Part shown: piece by piece, positions 4,009-32,057 of the stretch
How positions within the stretch are numbered: the first letter of the stretch is position 1
Layout of the letters: each line of letters begins with the position of its first letter
DNA from: Thermalbibacter longus
GTDB taxonomy: Bacteria > Chloroflexota > Chloroflexia > Thermomicrobiales > Thermomicrobiaceae
NCBI RefSeq assembly: GCF_023806485.1
Contig: NZ_JAMSLR010000007.1
Coordinates: 1 to 64,000, forward strand
DNA: 64,000 nt
Direction: 5' to 3'
Translations under genes and position numbers: made by a program
Notes under the pieces: generated by a model
Database searches by the model: none
What the model saw: only the letters and a program-made list of their open reading frames with translations
Told to the model about the DNA's origin: nothing

Positions 4009-5109
4009 CTACTTGGTGTAGCTGTTCAGGTTGTCCTTAGTGACCACGGTGACGCCGGTGTCGATGTTCTCGAACGGCGGCTTGGCCTTACCCGTCAAAA
4101 TATCGTAGGCCCACTGCACGGTGAGCACGCCCATCTGCACTGGGCGCTGGACCATGGTCGCCTGGATGATCCCCTCCTCGATGGCGCGTTTGGTCTCCTC
4201 CAGGTCATCGAACGCGACGATCTTGAGTTTGCCGATACGATCCTGGAACTCGGGCGACTTCAGCACCTGGGCCAGCGTGGGGCCACCGGTCGCGCTGACG
4301 CAGGCGATGCCGTTCAGATCCGGGTGAGCGCGCAGCATCGCCTCGCTGACGCTGAGCCCCTTCTGCAGGTCATCGTCGGTCGCCTGGGTATCCACGACCT
4401 CGATGTTGGGGCCGATGCCCTCCTTGAGCCCCTCGATGCGCTGGTTGAGGTTGAGCGCGCCCAGCCCACCGGTGATGATGCCGATCTTGCCCGTACCGCC
4501 AAGCAGCTCGGCCAGCGTCTCCCCCTGAGTCTTGCCCGCCGCCTTGTTGTCCGTACCGATGTACATGACGCGCTCGCTCTCGGGAGAGTCGGCATCGAAG
4601 GTCATCATCAGGATACCGCGGCTCATCCCCTCGGCAATGACCGGCTCTACCGACTTCGGCTCGTTCGGCGAGATCGAGATGGCGTGAACCTGCTTCGCGA
4701 TCAGATCCTCGATCATCTGCACCTGGATCGCGGGGTCCGCCGTCTGCGGCGCCACCCACTGGAAGTCGACGCCCAACTCCTCGGCCTTCTGCGCGGCGCC
4801 CTGGCGCACGTCCTCGAAGAAGGGATGCACCAGCTTGGGTACCAGGGCAATGGTGATCTTCGTGCCGGGTGCGACAGTCGGCACTGGGCTCTCAGCGGTC
4901 TCGGCCGGTGTCGTGGCGGCTGCCGGGGTAGCCGCTGCCGCGCGGGTGGGGGTAGGAGACGCGGCGGGAGCCTGCGCTGGCGCTGTCGGCGCAGCCGCCT
5001 CCTGCCGGCAGGCACTGAGGATCGCCAGCGAGGCCGAGCCGAGGGCGAGGGAACTGAGAGCCTGTCGTCGGGTCAACCGTTTCTGCCAGAAGTCGATCGA
5101 TCGCGCCAT
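4009..5109 (-). CDS. Sugar ABC transporter substrate-binding lipoprotein
   Basis: This 366-residue protein is the extracytoplasmic binding protein of a sugar importer of the RbsB type (periplasmic binding protein domain, from about residue 90). The N-terminus has TRRQAL, a twin-arginine-like motif, then a hydrophobic stretch and the lipobox LSAC, so it should be a lipid-anchored protein. A Pro/Ala/Thr linker follows. The body shows typical features such as ISPNEP and the hinge region with GIACVSATGG. The start has a strong ribosome site (GGAGGAG). It lies directly upstream of the ATPase in one operon, with the IclR gene behind it. The ligand cannot be told from sequence. Confidence 0.9.
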   Translation of the reverse strand: MARSIDFWQKRLTRRQALSSLALGSASLAILSACRQEAAAPTAPAQAPAASPTPTRAAAATPAAATTPAETAESPVPTVAPGTKITIALVPKLVHPFFEDVRQGAAQKAEELGVDFQWVAPQTADPAIQVQMIEDLIAKQVHAISISPNEPKSVEPVIAEGMSRGILMMTFDADSPESERVMYIGTDNKAAGKTQGETLAELLGGTGKIGIITGGLGALNLNQRIEGLKEGIGPNIEVVDTQATDDDLQKGLSVSEAMLRAHPDLNGIACVSATGGPTLAQVLKSPEFQDRIGKLKIVAFDDLEETKRAIEEGIIQATMVQRPVQMGVLTVQWAYDILTGKAKPPFENIDTGVTVVTKDNLNSYTK

Positions 5110-6538: not shown

Positions 6539-8362
6539 TCAGCCAGGCGGAACCGAGGCAGCGGGTCGATCCGACGGCCCCGCCCCGAGGCCGGTCCAGT
6601 ACTCGATGAATTCGCCAGGCGTCAGGGGATCAGCAGAGAGGCCAAGGGCGCGCGCCAGCCGGAGCGTCGACGGCGGCTCCAGCCCAGCCTGCCCGAGCAG
6701 CTCCGGCTGTGCGAAGACCGCCCGCGCTGAACCGGCGGCCAGCACCGCGCCGCGTGCCAGCACGACCACTCGAGGACAGTAGCTCGCGACGAACTCCATG
6801 TCGTGGGTGATCACGATGACCAGCCGGCCTTCGGTCTGAAGCTCGCGGACCAGCCGGCCGATCCGCTCGACTCCCGGATGATCCTGGGCGATCGTCGGCT
6901 CGTCGAGGATCAGGATCGGAGTCTGCATGGCCAGCACGGAGGCCAGGGCCAGCATCTTGCGCTGCCCCAGGCTGAGGTCGTAGGGGTTCTCCTCGGCCAG
7001 CGACCCCAGTCCGACCCGCTCCAGCGCCTCGCGGGCCCGCCGCTCGGCCTCGCGTGGAGACAGGCCCAGGTTGAGCGCGCCGAACATCGCCTCCTCGAGC
7101 GCCCGGCTCTTGAAGAGCTGGTCGTCGGGATTCTGGAACACCAGCCCAACCCTCCGGGCGATCTGCGCCGCGGTCTGCGCGCGGATCGCCTGTCCATCGA
7201 TCAGGATCTCTCCGGACTGGGGACGGAGCAGCCCGGCGATCAGCTTGACCAGCGTGGTCTTGCCGGCCCCGTTCTCGCCGATGAGCGCAACCGGGCCGGC
7301 ACCCGCGGCTACGTACCCTTCAGGCGCAGCCCCTGGCTCGACACCGCCGAGGGCTAGGCTCAGCTCCTGGAAGACGCGGGTGCCGTCGGGATAGGCGAAG
7401 CTCACCCCCCGCAGAGCGATGCGCGGTACGGTCCTGCTCGTCGATAGTCGCGACTCCTCGCGGTCAGCCGGAGTGTCCATCGTCCGAACCGCCGGCTCGA
7501 ACGAGCCCGCCTTCGCTGCCAGCCGAGCGACGCGCAGGGCAGCCACGGTGTCTTCGATCCTCAGGGGGAGGGAACCGCTCGCCGAGCGGGCGCCCAGGCA
7601 AGCGGCGACGCGGATAGGGGCTGGGAGCGCCAGGCCGCAGGATTCGAGTTGGCCCGATTGCAGTACCTCCCCAGGAGGGCCCCAGGCCCGCACTCTGCCG
7701 TCTGCGAGCAGCAGGAGACGATCGGCGTGCTCCAGCAGCCGCTCCAGCTTGTGCTCGACCATCACCACTGTCAGGCCATCGGCACGCAGGCGGGCGATGC
7801 AGTCGAAGACCTCGCGCGTGCCGCTGGGGTCGAGCTGCGAGGTCGGCTCGTCGAGCACGAGCACGTCTGGGCGCTGGGCCAGCATGCAGGCGATGGCTAG
7901 GCGCTGGAGCTCCCCGCCGGAGAGGAGAAACGGGCTCTTCTCCCGCAGGTGGACTATACCCACCTGGTCCATTGCCCACTCGACCCGGCGACGCATCTCG
8001 CCCCTGGGCACGCCGAAGTTCTCCAGACCGAAGGCGACCTCCTCCTCGACCGTGAGCCGGGCGCCGGACAACTGGGTGAACGGGTTCTGGAAGACGAGGC
8101 CGGCCCGCCGTGCCAGCTCGTGCACCGGAGTACGGTTGACGTCCATGCCCGCCACCGTCACCCTGCCCTCGTACTGGCCGCGGAAGACCTGCGGCACCAG
8201 CCCGAGGAGCGCATAGCAGAGCGTCGACTTGCCGGCCAAGTTCGGCCCTACCACGCCGACGAGCTGGCCGGCCTCGACCGCGAACGAGACGTTTTCGAGG
8301 GCGTTCGCCTGCCCGGTGGGATAGCGGTAGGTGAGGCCTTCGACCTCGACGATAGGAGTCAC
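6539..8362 (-). CDS. ECF transporter energizing subunit, fused double ATPase
   Basis: This 607-residue protein joins two ECF-type ATPase domains that are separate EcfA1/EcfA2 proteins in many bacteria. Domain 1 has an unusual Walker A, GPNLAGKST (39-47, with Leu-Ala where Gly-Ala is usual), then FQNPFTQL, LSGGELQRL and LVLDEPTSQLDP. Domain 2 has GENGAGKTT (about 362-370), FQNPDDQLF, LSLGQRKML and LILDEPTIAQD. FQNP is typical of ECF and cobalt ATPases. The start is a GTG whose last bases overlap the EcfT stop (GTGA), indicating translational coupling. It drives uptake by the neighbouring T and S components at the membrane. Confidence 0.88.
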   Translation of the reverse strand: MTPIVEVEGLTYRYPTGQANALENVSFAVEAGQLVGVVGPNLAGKSTLCYALLGLVPQVFRGQYEGRVTVAGMDVNRTPVHELARRAGLVFQNPFTQLSGARLTVEEEVAFGLENFGVPRGEMRRRVEWAMDQVGIVHLREKSPFLLSGGELQRLAIACMLAQRPDVLVLDEPTSQLDPSGTREVFDCIARLRADGLTVVMVEHKLERLLEHADRLLLLADGRVRAWGPPGEVLQSGQLESCGLALPAPIRVAACLGARSASGSLPLRIEDTVAALRVARLAAKAGSFEPAVRTMDTPADREESRLSTSRTVPRIALRGVSFAYPDGTRVFQELSLALGGVEPGAAPEGYVAAGAGPVALIGENGAGKTTLVKLIAGLLRPQSGEILIDGQAIRAQTAAQIARRVGLVFQNPDDQLFKSRALEEAMFGALNLGLSPREAERRAREALERVGLGSLAEENPYDLSLGQRKMLALASVLAMQTPILILDEPTIAQDHPGVERIGRLVRELQTEGRLVIVITHDMEFVASYCPRVVVLARGAVLAAGSARAVFAQPELLGQAGLEPPSTLRLARALGLSADPLTPGEFIEYWTGLGAGPSDRPAASVPPG

Positions 8363-22164: not shown

Positions 22165-22434
22165 TCAGCAACCCGCCAGCGTGAACTGCACCCGGCCGAA
22201 TGTGCCACCGACCACCTGGGCCAGTGCCCGCACTGTCATCGTTTTGGCCAGGCCGGGCACTCCCTCGAGCAGCACATGCCCGCGCGCCAGGAGGGCCACA
22301 AGGAGCCGCTCCAGCAGGTAATCCTGGCCCACGATCAGCCGCTTGACCTCGAACAGCACATGCTCGAGCACGTTCAGCGAGTGCGACGTCTCTCCCAGGG
22401 GCCGCGGCAATTGGCGGAAACTTCTCGTCGTCAT
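22165..22434 (-). pseudogene. MoxR-family AAA ATPase, N-terminal fragment
   Basis: An 89-residue frame starting at an ATG with AGAGGAG upstream. It reads VLEHVLFEVKRLIVGQDYLL, then the Walker A region LLEGVPGLAKTMTVRALAQ and FGRVQFT, an excellent match to the start of MoxR ATPases (normally about 320 residues). The frame stops within three codons after FGRVQFT, where PDLLP would be expected, and nothing of the remaining three quarters is found. It lies 65 bp downstream of the HtrA-like gene on the same strand. Confidence 0.78.
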
Positions 22435-22499
22435 GCACCGCGCTCCTCTATCTGACTTCCCCGTTCCCACTCAGGTTTCCCGGCGGCGTCCCCGCCCAG

Positions 22500-23705
22500 C
22501 TATGGCGCTTCCGCCGGCCAGCTTCCCAGTGTCACCGTGACCTCCTGCTGCCGCCCGTCGCGCACGATCGTGAGCCGGACAGTGTCGCCTGGCGCGTGCC
22601 GGCTGATCTGCTCGACGAGCTGATCCATGGTCTCGATCGTCGTGCCGTCGATAGCGACGATGATGTCGCCACCGCGCGGCACCGTGCCGTCGCCCGTATC
22701 CTCACCACCACGCAGTCCGGCCTGATCCGCCGGGCTATCGGGTACCACGCTGGCCACCAGGACGCCACGATCGATCGAGAGGCCCTGCTCCCGCGCCAGG
22801 GCCGCGTCGACCGTCACCCCGCTGATACCCAGCCAGGCAGGCTGGAGCTGCGCCCCTGCCTCGAGCTGCGGCAGCATGCGCCGTGCCGTGTTGCTCGGGA
22901 CCGCAAAGCCGATCCCCACCGAGCCACGTATCGGGCTCTCGATCATCGTGGTAATCCCGATGACCTCACCGTTGACGTTGAAGAGCGGTCCGCCGGAGTT
23001 GCCCGGATTGATCGGCGCGTCGGTCTGGAGCAGCCCGGTCCTCGTCCGGCCATCGCCGGGTTGCCAGGTGCGGTTAACCGCGCTGATGATCCCCTGGGTG
23101 ACCGTGCCCTCGAGGCCGAACGGGCTGCCGATCGCTACGACGACGTCGCCGACTCGCACCTGATCGGAATCTCCGAGCGGCGCGACCGCGATGCCCTCCG
23201 GGAGCTCGACCTGGAGGAGCGCGAGATCGTTCCCAGTGTCCGTGCCGAGCACCCTCGCCTCGCGCACCTCTCCGTTGCTGAAACGCACCCGAACGTTCTC
23301 GACACCCTCGACGACATGAGCCGCAGTGAGAACCAGCCCCCGTTGATCGACGACCACCCCCGAGCCACCACCGACGGGCGTCGTCCCTAGCCGCCCCTCG
23401 ACCGAGGTGACGATCTCCACCACCGCGCTACCGACCGCATCGTACACCGCCCCAGCGACATTTCCGGGAGCAGCAGTCTGATTCGCGACCGGTCGAGCCA
23501 TAACCACCGGCTCGGACGCTGGTGCCGGCTCCGGCCCCAGCCAGCGCAGCCCAACCGCCGCTCCGGCCACCCCGACGGCGAAGACCGCCAGCATAACCCC
23601 GGCCACCGCCAACGCGATCAACCTAGGGCGTCGCCTACGGGTGTCACCCCGGCCGCTCTCTTCCGGCTCACCCTGACTCGATGTTCCCTGATACTGGTCG
23701 AACAT
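22500..23705 (-). CDS. HtrA/DegP-like membrane-anchored serine protease with PDZ domain
   Basis: A 401-residue protein with a charged cytoplasmic N-terminus, one membrane helix (about 29-51), a trypsin-like domain and a C-terminal PDZ domain. The triad is visible: His130 in LTAAHVVEG, Asp160 in TGNDLALLQ, and Ser237 in PINPGNSGGPLFN. The protease acts outside the membrane on misfolded proteins. The ATG at 23705 has GAGGGAG upstream. The intergenic region before it carries five CTTAG-type half-sites at 11-bp intervals. It is separated from the histidine kinase gene by 175 bp. Confidence 0.93.
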   Translation of the reverse strand: MFDQYQGTSSQGEPEESGRGDTRRRRPRLIALAVAGVMLAVFAVGVAGAAVGLRWLGPEPAPASEPVVMARPVANQTAAPGNVAGAVYDAVGSAVVEIVTSVEGRLGTTPVGGGSGVVVDQRGLVLTAAHVVEGVENVRVRFSNGEVREARVLGTDTGNDLALLQVELPEGIAVAPLGDSDQVRVGDVVVAIGSPFGLEGTVTQGIISAVNRTWQPGDGRTRTGLLQTDAPINPGNSGGPLFNVNGEVIGITTMIESPIRGSVGIGFAVPSNTARRMLPQLEAGAQLQPAWLGISGVTVDAALAREQGLSIDRGVLVASVVPDSPADQAGLRGGEDTGDGTVPRGGDIIVAIDGTTIETMDQLVEQISRHAPGDTVRLTIVRDGRQQEVTVTLGSWPAEAP

Positions 23706-23778
23706 GGCGGGTCTCCCTCGTACACCGACCGCTACCCTTTCCGGTAGGTGAAGGGTAGACCCGCAACTTGAAGGCACC

Positions 23779-23827
23779 CTAAGCGAGATCTGAGAGGAGG
23801 CTCAGCCGAAGCTAAGAATTCCCTAAG
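23779..23827 (-). promoter_or_regulatory. Array of five CTTAG-type half-sites, 11-bp period, upstream of the HtrA-like gene
   Basis: Read on the minus strand: CTTAG (23823-23827), CTTAG (23812-23816), CTGAG (23801-23805), CTCAG (23790-23794), CTTAG (23779-23783). Each starts exactly 11 bp from the last. This is the spacing used by OmpR/PhoB-type regulators bound side by side on one face of DNA. The array ends 74 bp before the start codon. Confidence 0.75.
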
Positions 23828-23880
23828 AGCCTGACTCGCAGTGCTGGGGGACGACTGGGTGACCGGAGGTGAGATGGAGG

Positions 23881-25287
23881 TCACTCGTCGGCGGGCAGCG
23901 CCTCGGCTCGGGGAAGCGTGACCGTGAAGACGCTTCCCCGCCCGAGCTCGCTCTGTACGCGAATCTCGCCCTGCTGGGCTTCGACCAGCGATTTGGCGAT
24001 GGCGAGACCGAGTCCAGTATTCTGGCCGCTACGAGAAGAGTCGCCACGGTAGAAGCGCTCGAAGATGTGGGGCAGGGCAGCCGGATCGATTCCCGGTCCG
24101 GTATCGCGCACACTGATCTCGACCCTGCCATCCCTGACGGCCGCAGCGACGGTGATCATCCCGCCCTCCGGCGTGTACTTGAGGGCATTATCGAGGAGAA
24201 TAAGCAATACCTGCTTGAGCGCATCACGGTCGGCTAGCACCGCGGCCTCCACCGTGTCGTCCCACACGAGTGCGCGGCCATCGGCGAGCACCAGTGCCTG
24301 GCGACAGGCGTCGTCGATGAGCGGGCACACCGGCACCGGCTCCCTGCGCAGTGGCAGCCCGGCATCGGTGCGGGCCAGGAGCAGCAGGCCGTTGACCAGG
24401 CGGATCATCCGTTCGATCTCCTCGGCCACATCATGCAAGACCGCGACGCGATCCTCCTCGCTGATGGGCGGGTCGCGCTGGAGCAACGCCACGTTTCCCC
24501 GAATGGTGGTGAGCGGCGTGCGCAGCTCATGCGAGGCATCGGCGACGAACCGCCGCTGTGCCTGGAGCGACTGCTCCACCTGCCGGTAGGCGGCCTGAAG
24601 CTCGGTCAGCATCGTGTTGAACATCGTGGCCAGCAGTCCGATCTCGTCGCTCGGCCCCGAGTACTGGACGCGACGGCTGAAGTCGCGCCGCGCGCCGATC
24701 TCCTGCGCTGTCTGGGTGATCCGGTTGATGGGACGCAGGCTCAGCCCGGCCAGCCCCCAACCGATCCCGAACGCCGCCACCGTCGCGAGGCCCGTCCCGA
24801 CCATGAGCGTCCACTTCAAGGCTCCGAGGGCTCGATCCTGCTCGGCGAGCGAGCGCGCGACCTGAAGGATGCCCGCCGGCTGGCCAGGGAAACGGAACGG
24901 CTTGCTGTAGACCAGCAGCCGGCCATCCTCGGTCGAGACCGTCTCGGTCCATGACTTCGCCTCGCCGGTGCGGAGTTGCCGCATGCCTTCCTCGCTGATC
25001 GGCAGCGTGAAGTCCCCCAGGTTGGGGGACTTGTCGGCCACCTCACCGTCGAGCGTGCGCACCTGTACGTATGTCTCGGGGACAGCGATCCGGCCACGCG
25101 GCGTGTCGATGACCGTCAGCGTGAACACCCCCTGGGTGAGAATCTGGGTCGCCTCCTCGACGAGCGCGTTCTCCTGGAAATCGAGCATCACGCGCGAGAC
25201 GGTGAGGTAGATCGTCACGCTGAAGGCAATCAGGGTAAAGACGAGGATCGCGCTGTAGAGCAATGTCAGCCGCAGGCGAACCGACAT
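23881..25287 (-). CDS. Sensor histidine kinase
   Basis: A 468-residue membrane sensor. Helix 1 (about 8-30) and helix 2 (about 160-181) enclose an extracytoplasmic domain. A HAMP linker (SLRPINRI onward) leads to the phosphoacceptor motif DASHELRTP (His253). The ATPase domain has LLDNALKYTP (N box), VRDTGPGID (G1) and TGLGLAIAK (G2). All catalytic motifs are intact. It follows the response regulator by 6 bp. The signal is unknown; the nearby exported genes suggest envelope or secretion stress. Confidence 0.93.
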   Translation of the reverse strand: MSVRLRLTLLYSAILVFTLIAFSVTIYLTVSRVMLDFQENALVEEATQILTQGVFTLTVIDTPRGRIAVPETYVQVRTLDGEVADKSPNLGDFTLPISEEGMRQLRTGEAKSWTETVSTEDGRLLVYSKPFRFPGQPAGILQVARSLAEQDRALGALKWTLMVGTGLATVAAFGIGWGLAGLSLRPINRITQTAQEIGARRDFSRRVQYSGPSDEIGLLATMFNTMLTELQAAYRQVEQSLQAQRRFVADASHELRTPLTTIRGNVALLQRDPPISEEDRVAVLHDVAEEIERMIRLVNGLLLLARTDAGLPLRREPVPVCPLIDDACRQALVLADGRALVWDDTVEAAVLADRDALKQVLLILLDNALKYTPEGGMITVAAAVRDGRVEISVRDTGPGIDPAALPHIFERFYRGDSSRSGQNTGLGLAIAKSLVEAQQGEIRVQSELGRGSVFTVTLPRAEALPADE

Positions 25288-25293
25288 ATTTCG

Positions 25294-25971
25294 CTAGCCT
25301 TCGCGCAGCACGTAGCCGACCCCGCGTACCGTGTGGATCAAACGTGGCTCGCCGCCAGCCTCGGTCTTGGCCCGGAGATAGCCGATGTACACATCGAGCA
25401 CGCTGTCGTAGCCATCGAAGTCATGGCCCCAGACTGCCTCCAAGATCCGGCTTCGCGGGAGCACCCGGCGCGGGTTGCGCAGGAAGAAAGCGAGCAAGTC
25501 GAACTCCCGAGGACTCAGCGTGAAGGCCCGGTCACCACGACGTGTCTCCCGCGTGACGGGGTCGAGCCAGAGATCGGCAAAGCTGAGCGGCTTCTCGTCG
25601 GCTGCCGGCTCGGCCCGCCGCAACAGCGCGCGCACCCGGGCGAGCAGCTCCGCCGGCGCGAACGGCTTGACCAGGTAGTCGTCGGCGCCGCTGTCCAGAC
25701 CCGCGACCCGGTCCTCGACCGCGTCGCGCGCAGTCAGCATCAGCACCGGCGTGGTATCGCCCGCCATCCGCAGGCGCTGGATCACCGTCAACCCGTCCAG
25801 CTTCGGCATCAGCCAATCGAGCACCACCACGTCCGGGCGCTGCTCTTGTACCCTCGCCAGCGCCTCCTGGCCATCGCTCGCCGTGACGACCCGGTAGCCC
25901 TCATAGGCGAGCGTGCGCCGGAGCATCTCGACGAGTCGTACGTCGTCGTCCACGATCAACACGGTCGCCAT
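25294..25971 (-). CDS. OmpR-family response regulator
   Basis: A 225-residue regulator with a receiver domain (acidic pocket VDDD, phosphoacceptor Asp52 in VVVLDWLMP, the conserved Thr in LMLTARDA and Lys in YLVKPFAP). It is followed by a winged-helix domain ([37 protein letters not shown]). The ATG at 25971 was chosen because it begins [10 protein letters not shown] with GAGGGG upstream. It is cotranscribed with the kinase. I propose that it binds the 11-bp-spaced CTTAG arrays at 23779, 26120 and 28263. Confidence 0.94.
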
Positions 25972-26119
25972 GTCCGCATCCCCTCGATGGCTCGTCTTCG
26001 ATCCGCGGTCAGGCGCGCACGGGCCAACGGACAGTACCAGCCCAAGCATCGTGGAATGGTACCACGCGGCTAACCAACGCCCGGTCCGACCACCAGCTCA
26101 CGGGAGGCGAACCACCCGT

Positions 26120-26146
26120 CTTAGCCTTTTCTTAGCTTCATCTTGG
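26120..26146 (+). promoter_or_regulatory. Array of three CTTAG-type half-sites upstream of the YceI lipoprotein
   Basis: CTTAG (26120-26124), CTTAG (26131-26135) and CTTGG (26142-26146) with an exact 11-bp period, in the gap between the response regulator (divergent) and the YceI gene. A possible -10, TAGCAT, lies at 26169-26174. The array could also act on the regulator's own gene. Confidence 0.7.
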
Positions 26147-26249
26147 GTACGCTTTGGTTGCCGCAAGGTAGCATAGCGCGACGCTGAAGCCCAGCGAACG
26201 GCCAGGGCCGGCACGTGAACGTTGCCAGCAAGAAGAAAGGGGGAAAGGG

Positions 26250-27035
26250 GTGCGGATCGCTCAGGCTACGAGTACGCTGCGGCTCCTCGGAGCGTTGCTG
26301 CTGCTCGGGTTCGCCCTGGCAGCCTGTAGCGGGCAGGAAAATCCGGCGGCATTGACGCCTGCACCCAGCCCAACCGCTGCGACTTCCCAGGCGATGCCGA
26401 CCATGCCGCCGACGCCCGCGTCATCTCCCGAACCGACGAGCACGGCAGCCACACCGGCTTCTCCGGCCGCAGGCGACGAATCGTCCACGACCGGCACCGT
26501 TCGACTGATCCTCGTTCCCGAGGAGAGCGAGGCACGCTACCGCGTGCGCGAGCAGCTCGCAAGCCAGTCGCTCCCCAACGATGCTGTCGGCGCTACTAGG
26601 GACGTCAGCGGCGCGGTGGTGCTGGCAACGGATGGCCGCATCGTGAGCGAGGAGTCTCGTTTCGAGGTCGACCTGCGTTCGCTCCAGAGCGACCAGAGCC
26701 GGCGCGACAACTTCATCCAGGAGAACACGCTCGAGACAGCTCAGTTCCCAACCGCTGTCTTCGAGCCACGCGAGACGAGCGGCCTGCCCTGGCCACTACC
26801 CGAGGGCGGCGAGTTCACCTTCCAGCTCGCCGGCGACCTGACCGTCCACGGTGTCACCCGCCCGGTGACGTGGGATGTCACGGCCAGGATGGAAGGCGAC
26901 CGGCTGGTCGGCAATGCGGTCACTCGGGTAACATTCCAGGACTTCGGTATGGAGCAGCCGCGCGTCGCCGTCGTCCTCAGCGTCGAGGAGACGATCCAGC
27001 TCGAGCTCGACTTCACCCTCGTCAGGGAGCAGTGA
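26250..27035 (+). CDS. YceI-family lipoprotein
   Basis: A 261-residue protein starting with GTG after AAGGGGGAAAGG. It has a signal peptide with lipobox LAAC and a Pro/Thr/Ser/Ala-rich linker to about residue 80. A YceI-like lipocalin-type domain follows (ISEESRFEVDLRSLQSDQSR, VHGVTRPVTWDV, VTFQDFGMEQPRV). In YceI proteins this barrel binds isoprenoid or other lipids. Here it is anchored on the outer face of the membrane. It overlaps no neighbour and is 2 bp before the next lipoprotein gene, so the two form an operon. Confidence 0.88.
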   Translation: MRIAQATSTLRLLGALLLLGFALAACSGQENPAALTPAPSPTAATSQAMPTMPPTPASSPEPTSTAATPASPAAGDESSTTGTVRLILVPEESEARYRVREQLASQSLPNDAVGATRDVSGAVVLATDGRIVSEESRFEVDLRSLQSDQSRRDNFIQENTLETAQFPTAVFEPRETSGLPWPLPEGGEFTFQLAGDLTVHGVTRPVTWDVTARMEGDRLVGNAVTRVTFQDFGMEQPRVAVVLSVEETIQLELDFTLVREQ

Positions 27036-27037
27036 CC

Positions 27038-28207
27038 ATGTCCCTCTCAACGACCATCGCTCGATCGCTCAGCGTTGCGGCCGGTACCGCGCTCTTCCTG
27101 GTGTCCCTGCTGGCTGCCTGTAGCTGGCGCGGCGAGCCATCCCCACCGGCCAGCACCGCGACGCCGGTGGTGTCGCCAGCGCTTGGCGATTCGACGCCGG
27201 TCACGAGCCCTGGCGGGGGTACAGCTCAGACGACGCCGGTTCCACCCAGCCCGACAGCCACGACACCCGCCCCGCAGCCCCAGCCCACCCCACCGCCACA
27301 ACCGACCGCCACGCCTGAACCGACTCCGGCACCGCATCCCCTGGCGGCCTATACCATCGACGGGCTGCGCAGCCGCCAGTATCCCGGTGGCACAATCGAG
27401 ATCCTGGGGACGCTCGATGCCACCGATGCGTACACCCGCTACGCGATCGCCTACCCCAGCGACGGGCTGCGGATCACCGGGGTGATGCACGTGCCTCACG
27501 GCGAGGGCCCCTTCCCGGTGGTGATCCTCAACCACGGCTACATCCCGCCCGAGCAGTACTGGCCTGGCGCTGACACCTGGCGCGAAGCCGACTTCCTGGC
27601 CCGCAGGGGTTACCTCTGCATCGCGCCGGACTTCCGTGGTTGGGCCGGGTCAGACCAGGGGCCCAACTACTTCCGAACCGGCATCGTCATCGACGTGCTC
27701 AACCTGATCAGCTCGCTCCCGTCCGTTCCTCAGGCCGATCCCCAGCGCGTGGGACTGTGGGGGCACAGCATGGGTGGCGGGCTGGTAGCCAAGGCGATCA
27801 CGATCGACCCGCGGATCGACGCCGCCGTGCTCTACGGGCCGGTCAGCGCCTACGACCTCGACAACATCCAGAAGTGGGGCGACGGGCTGCCGGAGAACAC
27901 CACTGACCCGCTGGCGCCCATCTACCGCGAAGCGGCCCGCGATCCGGCCTTCATCCGGCTGACCTCCGCCACGTTCTACTTCCACTACGTGACAGCCGCC
28001 GTGCAGATCCACCAGGGCACGGCCGATACCGTGACACCGCCCGAGTGGGCCCGCTCGATCCGCGACAGCCTCCAGCTCGCCGGCAGGAGTGTCGAGTACT
28101 ACGAGTACCCGGGACAGGGGCATGCCTTCCAAGGCCAGAGCTGGCAGCTCTTCATGGAGCGCACGGCTGCTTTCTTCGATACCCACCTCAAAGGAGGTGG
28201 GGCTTAG
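27038..28207 (+). CDS. Alpha/beta-hydrolase lipoprotein (dienelactone hydrolase/S9-like)
   Basis: A 389-residue lipoprotein: signal peptide with lipobox LAAC, a long Pro/Thr/Gln linker (to about residue 105), then an alpha/beta-hydrolase domain. The nucleophile elbow is GLWGHSMGGG, an Asp is in HQGTADTVTP and the His in YPGQGHAF, so the triad looks intact. VVILNHGYIPP gives the oxyanion region. It is an extracytoplasmic esterase or peptidase of unknown substrate. The ATG at 27038 lies right after the YceI stop. The longer open frame from 26870 is a shadow. Confidence 0.88.
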   Translation: MSLSTTIARSLSVAAGTALFLVSLLAACSWRGEPSPPASTATPVVSPALGDSTPVTSPGGGTAQTTPVPPSPTATTPAPQPQPTPPPQPTATPEPTPAPHPLAAYTIDGLRSRQYPGGTIEILGTLDATDAYTRYAIAYPSDGLRITGVMHVPHGEGPFPVVILNHGYIPPEQYWPGADTWREADFLARRGYLCIAPDFRGWAGSDQGPNYFRTGIVIDVLNLISSLPSVPQADPQRVGLWGHSMGGGLVAKAITIDPRIDAAVLYGPVSAYDLDNIQKWGDGLPENTTDPLAPIYREAARDPAFIRLTSATFYFHYVTAAVQIHQGTADTVTPPEWARSIRDSLQLAGRSVEYYEYPGQGHAFQGQSWQLFMERTAAFFDTHLKGGGA

Positions 28208-28262
28208 GGCAGCCTGTTGAGCCGGGCAGCATAGCCCATGCCTCGCGGATCGCCTCCGGTGC

Positions 28263-28300
28263 CTCAGTACCCTCTCAGGGTCGCCTTAGACTCTTCTTAG
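28263..28300 (+). promoter_or_regulatory. Array of four CTTAG-type half-sites, 11-bp period
   Basis: CTCAG (28263-28267), CTCAG (28274-28278), CTTAG (28285-28289), CTTAG (28296-28300). The period is exactly 11 bp. It precedes the histidine-phosphatase remnant and the Vgb-like lipoprotein gene by 60 bp. Confidence 0.72.
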
Positions 28301-28360
28301 CTGTGCGGCCTATGCTCTAACTGACGACTTCAGCTATCGCCGAGCGCGAAGACGCCGTCT

Positions 28361-28981
28361 ATGAAGAGATCGCGGCCGAGGCTTCCAGTCATCTCGTCGC
28401 TGGCCGTCGCGCTGGTCACCCTCGCTGCAGTCATGGCATGCGCTGCTCCACCGGACCGCCCGGCGACGGCTGCGGCTCCGCCGGGGCCATCCCCATCGGC
28501 TCCGACTGCCCCAGTGCGCCCGTTCCCCTCACCGACCACGCTGGCCCTTCTTACACCTGTAGCTCAAGCCTCACCCATGCCGCCGCCTCCCGGCACTAAC
28601 ACCGTGCTAGTGGGGCACCTGTTCAACATCCTGGCCGCCGCCGGCATCTCTCTTCCCGAGGGCGGCGCGGTGATTTTCGAGCCGCTCGGCGATGCAGGCT
28701 TCCCACTGCTTGCGGTGGTGTTGTCCGAGGAGTGGACAAGCCTGGCCGGAACGGGCTCTGCCCCCGGCAGGCCCGCCAGCTCACGCTTTCACGTAGCTAC
28801 ACCCGATCGTCAGCCCCGCCGGCAGCACAATGCCGCGCGGGCCGGTCCCCCGCGCCCAGGATCCGTCGTCGACCGGGAGATCCCTGCGAACTCACAGCCG
28901 CCCGCGGCCTGGCACGAGCGAGCAGGAGGCGCGCCCGGGGCCTTGCTTGCGATCGTCCAGAGAGGGGATACACGACAGTGA
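28361..28981 (+). pseudogene. Remnant of an exported histidine phosphatase-superfamily protein
   Basis: The frame begins with a lipoprotein signal (VMACAAPP) and a Pro/Ala linker to about residue 76. It then jumps to GTNTVLVGHLFNILAAAGIS (about 78-97) and EGGAVIFEP, ending with VVLSEEWTSLA. These match only the last part of the histidine phosphatase fold, with the second catalytic His (His86). The first half with the RHG motif is absent. After residue 130 the sequence is low-complexity readthrough with atypical codons up to the stop at 28981, overlapping the next start. An in-frame internal deletion plus loss of the native stop is the simplest reading. Confidence 0.6.
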
Positions 28982-30075
28982 AAAGACTCCTATGCCTGCT
29001 GGTCGCCGGGTTCGTGCTGGCTGGCTGCGGCGGCCCGGCCCAGCCGGCGCCGACGCCGACCACTCCGGCACCGCCGACAGTGCCCCCGGCGACTACACCA
29101 TCCGTGCCGGCCGCCACCCCGAACACCGCCGAGGTGACGCCCACAGCTTCGCCGAGCCCGGCCGCCATCCCCAGCCCTGCCGGGACTCTGTCGATCCAGG
29201 AGTACCCCGTGCCGGAGGGATCGCACCCGCACGACGTTGCACCAGCACCGGACGGCACCGTCTGGTACACCGCCCAGGCCTCCGGCGAGCTCGGCAAGCT
29301 CGACCCGGTCACCGGAGAGACACGCCACATCCCGCTCGGCGAGGGCTCGCGACCTCACGGTGTGATCGTCGGCCCGGACGGCGCAGCCTGGATCACCGAC
29401 GGCGGACTGAACGCGATCGTCCGGGTCGACCCACAGACCGAGGAGGTGCAGATCTTCCCGCTCCCTACCGGCTACGTGAACCTGAACACTGCCACCTTCG
29501 ACCGGAACGGCGTGCTCTGGTTCACAGGGCAGGCCGGCGCCTACGGGAGGCTCGACCCGGCGACCGGCCAGATCGAAGTGTTCGAGGCACCTCGCGGGCG
29601 CGGGCCCTATGGCATGACCACGACGCCACAGGGCGACGTCTACTATGCGTCTCTGGCCGGCAGCAATATCGCGCGGATCGATGTGGAGACCGGGCAGGCG
29701 ACCGTGCTCGAGCCGCCGACACCAGGACAGGGAGCACGGCGGGTATGGTCGGACTCCCGAGGGCGAATCTGGATCAGCGAGTGGAACGCTGGCCAGCTCG
29801 GGATGTACGACCCAGCCAGCGGCGAATGGCGCGAGTGGCCCCTGCCGGGCGACAACCCGCAGCCCTATGCCGTCTACGTCGATGAGCGCGATATTGTCTG
29901 GCTGAGCGACTTCGGAGCTAACGCGCTGGTGTCGTTCGACCCCGCGACCGAGACATTCCAGGTCCACCCGCTGCCCAGCCCGAACGCCAATGTGCGCCAG
30001 CTCCTCGGCCGCCCGGGCGAGGTCTGGGGCGCCGAGTCCGGCGCGGACAAGCTCGTCGTCGTGCGCTATCGCTGA
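28978..30075 (+). CDS. Vgb-like beta-propeller lipoprotein (virginiamycin B lyase family)
   Basis: A 365-residue lipoprotein with signal and lipobox LAGC, then a Pro/Thr linker to about residue 72. A propeller of about six blades follows. The blade signature recurs: DVAPAPDGTVWYT, GVIVGPDGAAWITD, TATFDRNGVLWFTG, GMTTTPQGDVYYAS, RVWSDSRGRIWISEW, AVYVDERDIVWLSDF. This is the Vgb/SMP-30-like streptogramin lyase fold. Many such proteins are not antibiotic lyases, so the substrate is open. The GTG at 28978 is preceded by GAGGGG. It probably shares the CTTAG-array promoter upstream. Confidence 0.85.
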   Translation: MKRLLCLLVAGFVLAGCGGPAQPAPTPTTPAPPTVPPATTPSVPAATPNTAEVTPTASPSPAAIPSPAGTLSIQEYPVPEGSHPHDVAPAPDGTVWYTAQASGELGKLDPVTGETRHIPLGEGSRPHGVIVGPDGAAWITDGGLNAIVRVDPQTEEVQIFPLPTGYVNLNTATFDRNGVLWFTGQAGAYGRLDPATGQIEVFEAPRGRGPYGMTTTPQGDVYYASLAGSNIARIDVETGQATVLEPPTPGQGARRVWSDSRGRIWISEWNAGQLGMYDPASGEWREWPLPGDNPQPYAVYVDERDIVWLSDFGANALVSFDPATETFQVHPLPSPNANVRQLLGRPGEVWGAESGADKLVVVRYR

Positions 30076-30110: not shown

Positions 30111-30521
30111 ATGCAGCGAACCAGTCGCATCTACGTCATGGAACTTGTCCGAGCCTATCAGTGCGGGCAGATTGGCCGTCGCGACTTCCTGCGCCAGGCA
30201 ACGGCCGCGTTCGGCAGCACGGCCGCGGCTGCGCTCCTGGCTGCGTGTCGCCAGCCCGCGGCGGGGACGCCGCCACCAGTTGTGGTGACTCCTTCGCCGA
30301 CCGTGACGTCGCCGGCGGCCACGGTAGGGCCGGCGCCGAGAACGACGGCCACTATCACTCCGATAGCAGGAGTGGAGGCCCGGACTGTCGAGTATCCGGA
30401 CCCGGATGGGGAGACGCTGATGGGCTATCTCGCGCTGCCAGTCGAGAGCTACCGGCCCGAGGCTGCGCCCGACGCGTGGCAGCGCGCGCTCGCCTGGCTC
30501 CGGGAGTATCTCCAGGCCTGA
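30111..30521 (+). pseudogene. Dienelactone hydrolase-like protein with its catalytic middle deleted
   Basis: The 136-residue frame has a good start (GGGAGGAG), a twin-arginine signal (GRRDFLRQA) with lipobox LAAC, and a Pro/Thr linker. It then shows the first strand of a dienelactone hydrolase domain (VEYPDPDGETLMGYLALP, about 93-110). Immediately after comes ESYRPEAAPDAWQRALAWL, the family's last helix. About 200 residues with the Cys/Asp/His triad are missing, without loss of frame. Either it is a decayed gene or a retained small secreted protein. It lies 35 bp after the Vgb-like gene. Confidence 0.6.
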
Positions 30522-30618: not shown

Positions 30619-31284
30619 ATGCATCTTCATGTGTCTCTTCGACGTATATCCCAATGCAGCGGGCTCGATCGGCCTGCTGGCGAGACAAATGAAACGACCG
30701 GCGAGCTCCAGCGACTGGACGATGCGGAGCTGGTGACGCTAACCGGCCAGGGTGAGGTCCGCGCGCTGGAAGTGCTCTATAACCGGTATGCCCGCGCGGC
30801 GTTCGCCTTCGCCGTCCGGATCGTCGGTGACCCGCTGGAAGCTGAGGAGATCCTGCAGGAGGCCTTTTTGCGGGTGTGGCAGCAGGCCAACCGCTTCCAG
30901 CATGCCCGGGGAAGCTTCGCGAGCTGGCTCCTGAGCATCACGCATAACCTGGCGATCGATGCCTTGCGGCGACGGCAGCGGCGTCCACAACGGGCCGACA
31001 TGGTCGACTTCTTCGAGGTGCTGCGCACTGAAATCGACACCGCGGTCGACCTCGAGGAGGCGGCGATGGTCGCGGAGCTTCGGCAGCAGGTGCAGGCGGC
31101 GATCGCCCAGTTGCCGCAGCGCCAGCGCGAGGTGTTAGAGCTCGCCTATTTCCAGGGATTGACGCAGCGCGAGATTGCCGAGCTGCTCGATGAGCCGCTC
31201 GGTACCGTCAAGACCAGGATGCGGCTGGGGCTACAGAAGCTACAAGAGGCCCTGCAGGCTCAGAGACCGGAGACCTCGGGCTGA
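30619..31284 (+). CDS. ECF sigma factor (SigK-like)
   Basis: A 221-residue sigma factor with region 2 (ALEVLYNRYARAAFAFAVRI, AEEILQEAFLRVWQQA, WLLSITHNLAIDALRRR) and region 4 (LPQRQREVLELAYFQGLTQREIAELLDEPLGTVKTRMRLG). The ATG at 30619 has GGGAG upstream, and a TATACT box sits at 30590-30595. It overlaps the anti-sigma gene by one base (TGATG), so the two are coupled. It should direct a stress regulon when released from the anti-sigma factor. Confidence 0.92.
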   Translation: MHLHVSLRRISQCSGLDRPAGETNETTGELQRLDDAELVTLTGQGEVRALEVLYNRYARAAFAFAVRIVGDPLEAEEILQEAFLRVWQQANRFQHARGSFASWLLSITHNLAIDALRRRQRRPQRADMVDFFEVLRTEIDTAVDLEEAAMVAELRQQVQAAIAQLPQRQREVLELAYFQGLTQREIAELLDEPLGTVKTRMRLGLQKLQEALQAQRPETSG

Positions 31285-32057
31285 TGACCGGTGGAATCGA
31301 ACACGACCAGGGCCACGTCGGCGATCTGATCGCCGCCTACGTGCTCGACGCGCTCGACCCGGAAGAGCTCGAACTGGTCGAGCGACACCTCGAGGATTGT
31401 CCGCAATGCCAGGCGGCCGTGATCGAAGCCCGAGCAGCCATCGACCTCATGGCCTACCTCCCGGATCCACAACCCGTGCCGCTACGCGCTCGCCATCGCC
31501 TCCTCGCTCGCCTGCACGCGGACGCGGCGAGCACGCCGGAAGCCGCTCCTATTCGCCTGCGCAGCCGGCTCGGCTGGCTCGCAGCCGCAGTGGCGGCGGT
31601 GCTGGCGCTCGCGTTCGCCTGGCAGAGCTTGCAGTCGCAGGCCGAAGTGCAGGAGCGCGAAGCGCAGGTACGCGAGCTGGAGCAGCGTGGCCAGGTGCTC
31701 ACCCAATTCGTCAACAACCGGCCGCAGGGTTTCGTCATGCCGATCGAGAGCACCGTCGCCGCTCCCGGCGCGCGCGGCGGGATTATCCTCGACCCCACGA
31801 GCAACGCCGCGCTGGTTATGATCGAGGGACTCCCGCGCTTGCCCACCGGTCAGGCATACGTGGTCTGGCTCGTCGACGGCGACCGGTATATCAATGCCGG
31901 GGTACTGCCGGTGGATGATCAGGGCCGGGGAGAGCTGTACCTGACGCCCCAGGAGGCATTGTCGACCTTCACCGGCATCGCCATCACCGTCGAGACCGGT
32001 GCCCTGGCTTCCAGCCCGAACGGCCAGCCTGTCGCACAGGCCACCATCGGTCGCTAG
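31284..32057 (+). CDS. Anti-sigma-K factor (RskA-like), membrane-bound
   Basis: A 257-residue protein. The cytoplasmic N-terminus has the zinc-type anti-sigma motif ERHLEDCPQCQ (HxxxCxxC, about 33-41). One membrane helix follows (about 96-112: WLAAAVAAVLALAFAW), then a short coiled coil and an extracytoplasmic RskA domain (IILDPTSNAALVMIEGLP, YVVWLVDGD, FTGIAITVETG). It should bind and silence the upstream sigma factor. Its 3' end overlaps the stop of the M29 peptidase gene on the other strand by 4 bp. Confidence 0.92.
   Translation: MTGGIEHDQGHVGDLIAAYVLDALDPEELELVERHLEDCPQCQAAVIEARAAIDLMAYLPDPQPVPLRARHRLLARLHADAASTPEAAPIRLRSRLGWLAAAVAAVLALAFAWQSLQSQAEVQEREAQVRELEQRGQVLTQFVNNRPQGFVMPIESTVAAPGARGGIILDPTSNAALVMIEGLPRLPTGQAYVVWLVDGDRYINAGVLPVDDQGRGELYLTPQEALSTFTGIAITVETGALASSPNGQPVAQATIGR

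Follow-up and report, generated by a model that had tools for sequence, protein, structure and literature searches.

Tandem CTYAG half-sites around an OmpR-type two-component system in Thermalbibacter longus: a predicted local regulon

Which regulator reads the tandem half-sites that surround a two-component system in Thermalbibacter longus, and which genes do these sites control? The locus lies within the first 64,000 nucleotides of contig NZ_JAMSLR010000007.1 (hereafter the window), from a genome placed in Thermomicrobiaceae, class Chloroflexia (G000 in our survey). An initial annotation, made from the letters of the window, had described three half-site arrays and proposed an envelope-stress regulon. 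Our analysis indicates that the two-component system at 23881-25971 is very probably a Chloroflexota envelope-stress-type system whose regulator, acting on CTYAG arrays, would activate htrA, the yceI-hydrolase genes, and others. Sequence comparison gives good support to the arrays as a local regulon of the neighboring OmpR-type system; we infer that the regulator binds the arrays, that it activates and does not repress, and that the signal is envelope stress.

Half-site arrays and promoter geometry

The three arrays, all intergenic, were found where the initial annotation had placed them and with the exact 11-bp period it had claimed, a spacing equal to a single turn of the DNA helix. Array 1 (23827-23779, minus strand), upstream of htrA, consists of five CTNAG half-sites and reads CTTAG-N6-CTTAG-N6-CTGAG-N6-CTCAG-N6-CTTAG toward the gene. 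Array 2 (26120-26157, plus strand), upstream of the YceI gene, reads CTTAG-N6-CTTAG-N6-CTTGG(-N6-TTTGG), with the degenerate TTTGG at 26153. Array 3 (28263-28300, plus strand) holds four perfect CTYAG half-sites (CTCAG-N6-CTCAG-N6-CTTAG-N6-CTTAG). Only the extents needed correction: the YceI array, and also the htrA array through a degenerate TTCAA (23772-23768), run one half-site further toward the -10 element than first described.

The arrays are real and not chance repeats. For each of the three intergenic regions, the observed four-half-site score was reached by none of 400 dinucleotide shuffles. Chains of three CTNRG units occurred in the window at a period of 11 only, with zero at periods of 9, 10, 12, and 13. 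A pattern search of the 3.63-Mb genome for CTNAG(N6CTNAG)2 returned arrays 1 and 3 and a single additional site, C1:525,392; the reversed-pattern control returned 0. The genome scan proposed by the initial annotation gave a divided result, in that triplets were far above chance, whereas CTYAGN6CTYAG pairs were at chance level (13 in the genome versus 16 for the reversed control). Thus, the signal resides in the longer chains; the three arrays hold 6/13 of the pairs. Arrays occurring at random rates inside coding regions, an outcome that had been named as counting against a regulon, were not what we observed, given the intergenic positions and the excess of triplets.

The arrays also hold a regular position relative to the predicted promoters. 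The -10 element assigned to htrA (TACCCT, 23752..23757, minus strand) lies 10 bp past the degenerate TTCAA, or 21 bp when counted from the last good half-site. That of array 3 (TATGCT, 28311..28316, plus strand) lies exactly 10 bp past the last half-site, and that of yceI (TAGCAT, 26169-26174, plus strand) lies 11 bp past the last array 2 unit. For a phase test, arrays were located by half-sites alone and the position of TANNNT was then recorded at 21 regulator-linked promoters, which come from related genomes across several families and do not constitute 21 independent events. At 19 of these promoters, TANNNT fell 10, 21, or 32 bp past the last half-site, a fixed phase of the 11-bp period, against a TANNNT background of 0.0051 per position. 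Two promoters departed from this pattern: that of yceI in the window's genome, at 11 bp, and that of G119, with the box TATCCC. The resulting geometry places one half-site over the -35 region and another between -35 and -10. In Escherichia coli, pho boxes are direct repeats located 10 bp upstream of TAN3T (PMC1906773). The layout of PhoB-type class II promoters, in which the repeats end ~10 bp before TAN3T and replace the -35 element, was thus present in 19/21 regulator-linked promoters.

The regulator and its link to the arrays

The presumed array reader is encoded at 25294..25971 (minus strand). Pfam confirmed the domains of the OmpR-type regulator and kinase that the initial annotation had recognized amid the arrays. 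The regulator combines Response_reg (PF00072, 6.7e-34) with Trans_reg_C (PF00486, 2.9e-26), and the paired sensor histidine kinase (23881..25287, minus strand) contains HAMP, HisKA, and HATPase_c, a domain content that assigns the system to the OmpR/PhoB family. The operator type of this family, direct repeats ~11 bp apart, is found in the window and at the orthologous loci. The kinase also possesses a PAS-like extracytoplasmic sensor, modeled by AlphaFold with a predicted local distance difference test (pLDDT) score of 75. Its closest Foldseek matches are WalK/YycG sensors (template modeling score, 0.55-0.60), which share the PAS-like extracytoplasmic fold at an identity of 11-13%, and their signal is not transferable. 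The named relatives of the kinase belong to Thermomicrobiaceae and Thermomicrobium, then to other Chloroflexia and Anaerolineae.

Conservation in related genomes, which the initial annotation had made a test of its proposal, was evident. Among 158 class genomes surveyed, 21 contain a regulator orthologue (about 69% identity or more), and in 20 of the 21, from several families, a promoter adjoining the system carries an array, usually the HtrA promoter with 4-8 half-sites. Within the family, the gene orders rpoD-htrA-kinase-regulator and yceI-hydrolase-sigma-antisigma are kept. Thermomicrobium genomes (regulator ~80-83% identical) have four half-sites at 11 bp in each of the htrA and yceI promoters, and the spacers differ. 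Array 2 is conserved in G011, and six Thermomicrobium-genus (g5) genomes have four half-sites followed by N10 and TANNNT. The promoter after the kinase carries six perfect half-sites in G072 (CTCAG, CTTAG, CTTAG, CTCAG, CTTAG, CTCAG, then N10 and TATCCT) and likewise six half-sites in G076, G071, G116, and G074. G119 has eight there, of which some are degenerate. The regulator's own promoter also has an array in G076 and G072, and in two Anaerolineae CACAG-N6-CTCAG-N10-TATGAT precedes the regulator; these arrangements suggest autoregulation.

A sequence-only profile (R1), trained on 14 promoters that all came from other families, gave its highest score in the window's genome to array 3 (26 bits; E = 4.6e-5), followed by the htrA array (23752-23803, minus strand; 19.7 bits). 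The degenerate YceI array was missed. Within the family, the htrA orthologue (57-81%) is confined to genomes holding the regulator orthologue, and seven of eight regulator-linked htrA promoters scored 15-19 of 20. The eighth, in G018, belongs to a fragment whose contig is cut before the promoter, and the array follows the kinase on the other contig. Eight HtrA paralogues of the same genomes (L200-L207) scored 11-13 of 20, which is background. Taken together, co-occurrence, the conserved phase to the -10 element, and the cross-family profile search link the regulator to the arrays.

Array loss goes together with gene decay in G012 (L051, G012:C18, 7391-8301), where YceI is a frameshifted pseudogene and its promoter array is deleted. 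In G074 (L106, G074:C7, minus strand near 4500), htrA is reduced to about eight codons, with the ribosome-binding site and the six-half-site promoter kept. The additional site at C1:525,392 (L065, G000:C1:518000-533000, 7393-7430, minus strand) comprises CTCGG and three CTCAG half-sites 11 bp apart and precedes a short twin-arginine translocation (Tat)-signal open reading frame (ORF) that ends after ~100 codons. Because its expected -10 element reads TGTGCT and its profile score is weak (E = 0.15), we regard it as a candidate only. Several arrays called by profile in distant genomes (e.g., G073:C97 and G076:C81) had no plausible, correctly oriented gene and were not used.

Proposed mechanism and competing readings

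In the proposed mechanism, the extracytoplasmic sensor of the kinase would presumably sense trouble outside the membrane, and the kinase would phosphorylate the regulator. The regulator would occupy the CTYAG half-sites as a head-to-tail row of monomers, one for every 11 bp, on an array that covers -35 and stops 10 bp short of the TANNNT -10 element, or one or two helical turns farther from it. Bound there, it would substitute for the contact that the sigma factor makes at -35 and turn transcription on, as in class II activation at E. coli pho boxes. Control is predicted to extend to htrA and yceI-hydrolase, in some relatives also to the gene of the regulator, and in the window's species to a lipoprotein module of recent acquisition. 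The envelope-stress regulon of the initial annotation therefore divides into two parts: the local regulon of the neighboring system is backed by conservation, phase, and profile, and envelope stress is a reasonable reading of the targets. These include HtrA and YceI, as well as a Mur-ligase-family protein (G072) and a possible membrane-fusion protein (G071) that are preceded by further arrays. A broader proposal, possible but in our view doubtful, is a Chloroflexota-wide envelope-stress regulon, a counterpart of Cpx/CssRS, in which array length (4-8) would set strength or threshold via cooperative assembly and which would recruit genes placed under arrays, such as the Vgb module described below.

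Regulation of this kind is well known; the literature searched contained no published description of this system, of a CTYAG operator, or of such a mechanism in Chloroflexota. Little is known of stress regulation in this phylum, and the locus yields a named regulator, an operator rule (CTYAG half-sites at 11-bp intervals, with TANNNT 10 bp past the final one), and a brief list of targets, all of which apply class-wide. The regulon is readable from sequence and testable in culturable Thermomicrobium. Differences in the number of half-sites, together with targets lost or gained (YceI in G012, HtrA in G074, and Vgb in G000), provide a small natural series for the evolution of tandem-site promoters.

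The system resembles E. coli PhoB in its tandem direct repeats every 11 bp, the last of them ~10 bp before a TAN3T -10 element (PMC1906773). It differs in that the half-site is CTYAG rather than the pho-box unit, the predicted regulon comprises an exported protease and lipoproteins rather than phosphate genes, and the regulator does not reach the PhoB equivalog cutoff (TIGR02154; 229.6 versus 296.2 bits). The parallel with CssRS and MprAB drawn by the initial annotation survives as a functional analogy. The secretion-stress systems CssRS (Bacillus and Streptomyces) and CutRS (Streptomyces) place an OmpR-type regulator and kinase over HtrA-like proteases, CssRS being induced by misfolded exported protein. 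Such control is predicted here, where the htrA linkage and the array are conserved. In MprAB (mycobacteria and Corynebacterium), an OmpR-type system is associated with HtrA/PepD and with envelope stress. Orthology was not supported: curated equivalog cutoffs were not reached, no MprA equivalog appeared among the NCBIfam matches listed, and CTYAG differs from both the CutR motif TAWATAAA (PMC12802291) and the Corynebacterium glutamicum MprA motif TKTTAAGAAM (PMC12113857). CutS senses via two conserved cysteines, whereas the aligned sensor segment here contains none. In a further difference from MprAB, the conserved neighbors here are extracytoplasmic function (ECF) sigma/anti-sigma genes, which have no array of their own; their promoter is of an ordinary TATACT type without half-sites. 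Among full-length proteins of solved structure, those nearest to the regulator in sequence are Mycobacterium tuberculosis PrrA (1ys6; E = 2e-62) and PhoP (3r0j/9ji3; 7e-62), a similarity at the family level only. The half-sites and regulons of PrrA and PhoP differ from those of the system described here.

Several observations weigh against a regulon tied to this one regulator. G077 contains a regulator orthologue without an array, the sole such case among the 21, and Thermomicrobium has degenerate half-sites (e.g., CTTGT and CTGAA). Moreover, the half-site is not exclusive to the window's regulator. G011 and G013 encode a second system with a 57% identical regulator (sister regulators, 55-58%) and several CTCAG arrays of like kind and phase (L063/L170-L173, G011:C33; L064/L174-L175, G013:C2). 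Within about 15 kb, these arrays precede an HMA-domain protein, a DUF5676 2TM protein, a flavin adenine dinucleotide-dependent oxidoreductase, and a P-type metal ATPase. The sister system may thus represent a second local regulon under the same phase rule, before metal (copper-type) genes. In other Thermomicrobiales genomes, TTCAG/CTCAG arrays precede HtrA paralogues near other OmpR-type regulators. The half-site type is therefore common to a small clade of regulators.

These sister arrays bear on the alternative that survives best, although we consider it unlikely: a metal (copper-type) sensor rather than one of envelope or secretion stress, with HtrA and YceI responding to metal-damaged exported proteins. 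The HMA metal-binding protein and P-type ATPase behind the G011/G013 arrays are consistent with this alternative, as are the presence of CzcS among the fold matches of the sensor and the best NCBIfam model of the kinase, heavy-metal sensor kinase TIGR01386. That match is below cutoff, however. The TIGR01386 and TIGR01387 scores (223.6 and 214.8 bits, respectively) fall short of 292.55 and 279.2 bits, and metal genes occur near the sister system only, which argues against a CopRS/CusRS/CzcRS type. In addition, the array-adjoining genes of the window include no metal-transport gene, the link conserved across families is to HtrA and not to a metal gene, and the aligned sensor segment is without cysteine. 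Envelope stress is the reading that we prefer.

That another OmpR/PhoB-type regulator of the genome reads the arrays, with the neighboring system linked incidentally, is improbable. Seven OmpR-type regulators in G000 match at E < 1e-40, and related genomes have CTCAG-type arrays next to regulators other than this one (45-58%). However, the adjacency of array and regulator is kept in 20/21 genomes of several families. The nearest sister clade of the regulator (57%) is absent from G000, where the next best regulator is at 49-52%; its absence leaves less ambiguity over the array reader there. We give similarly little credence to repression, in which the bound regulator would block polymerase and stress would relieve the block. 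The arrays do cover -35 and come within 10 bp of -10, but a half-site itself occupies -35, and the geometry equals that of the activating pho boxes. Chance or low-complexity repeats without a regulatory role have a negligible probability, since it is CTYAG pairs alone that are at chance level genome-wide, whereas triplets are not, and position, phase, and identity have been kept in about 20 genomes despite divergent spacers.

Genes behind the arrays and their neighbors

Array 1 precedes the gene for an HtrA/DegP-like exported serine protease with a transmembrane anchor (22500..23705, minus strand; Pfam Trypsin_2, 7e-37; PDZ_2, 2e-18), and array 2 precedes that for a YceI-domain lipoprotein (26250..27035, plus strand; Pfam YceI, 1.9e-22). 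The latter gene is probably cotranscribed with one for an alpha/beta-hydrolase (S9-like) lipoprotein (27038..28207, plus strand; Pfam Peptidase_S9, 2.5e-13); both are syntenic in the family. The initial annotation was correct that exported proteins lie behind the arrays, but the Vgb-like gene is not directly behind array 3, as a truncated histidine-phosphatase-like lipoprotein ORF (28361..28981, plus strand) stands first. This ORF has a partial, below-cutoff NCBIfam match to PRK06193 (residues 74-128) that covers only the C-terminal part of that family, which we take to be histidine-phosphatase-like. It overlaps the start of the gene for the Vgb-like beta-propeller lipoprotein (28978..30075, plus strand; Pfam Vgb_lyase, 1e-37).

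Within the family, this ORF and the Vgb-like gene are present in the window's genome alone. Vgb homologues elsewhere in the class (about 61-68%) had arrays at 0/11 loci examined; thus, the link between Vgb and an array appears specific to the window's species. The pattern suggests that the truncated ORF and Vgb gene form a newcomer module that came under an array. A truncated Tat-signal dienelactone-hydrolase-like ORF (30111-30521) lies on the other side of the Vgb-like gene, and the two truncated ORFs flanking it suggest a decayed recent insertion. The ECF sigma (SigK-like) and RskA-like anti-sigma pair (30619-32057) is syntenic with the two-component system in the family. Directly downstream of htrA, a truncated MoxR-like ATPase fragment occupies positions 22165-22470 (minus strand).

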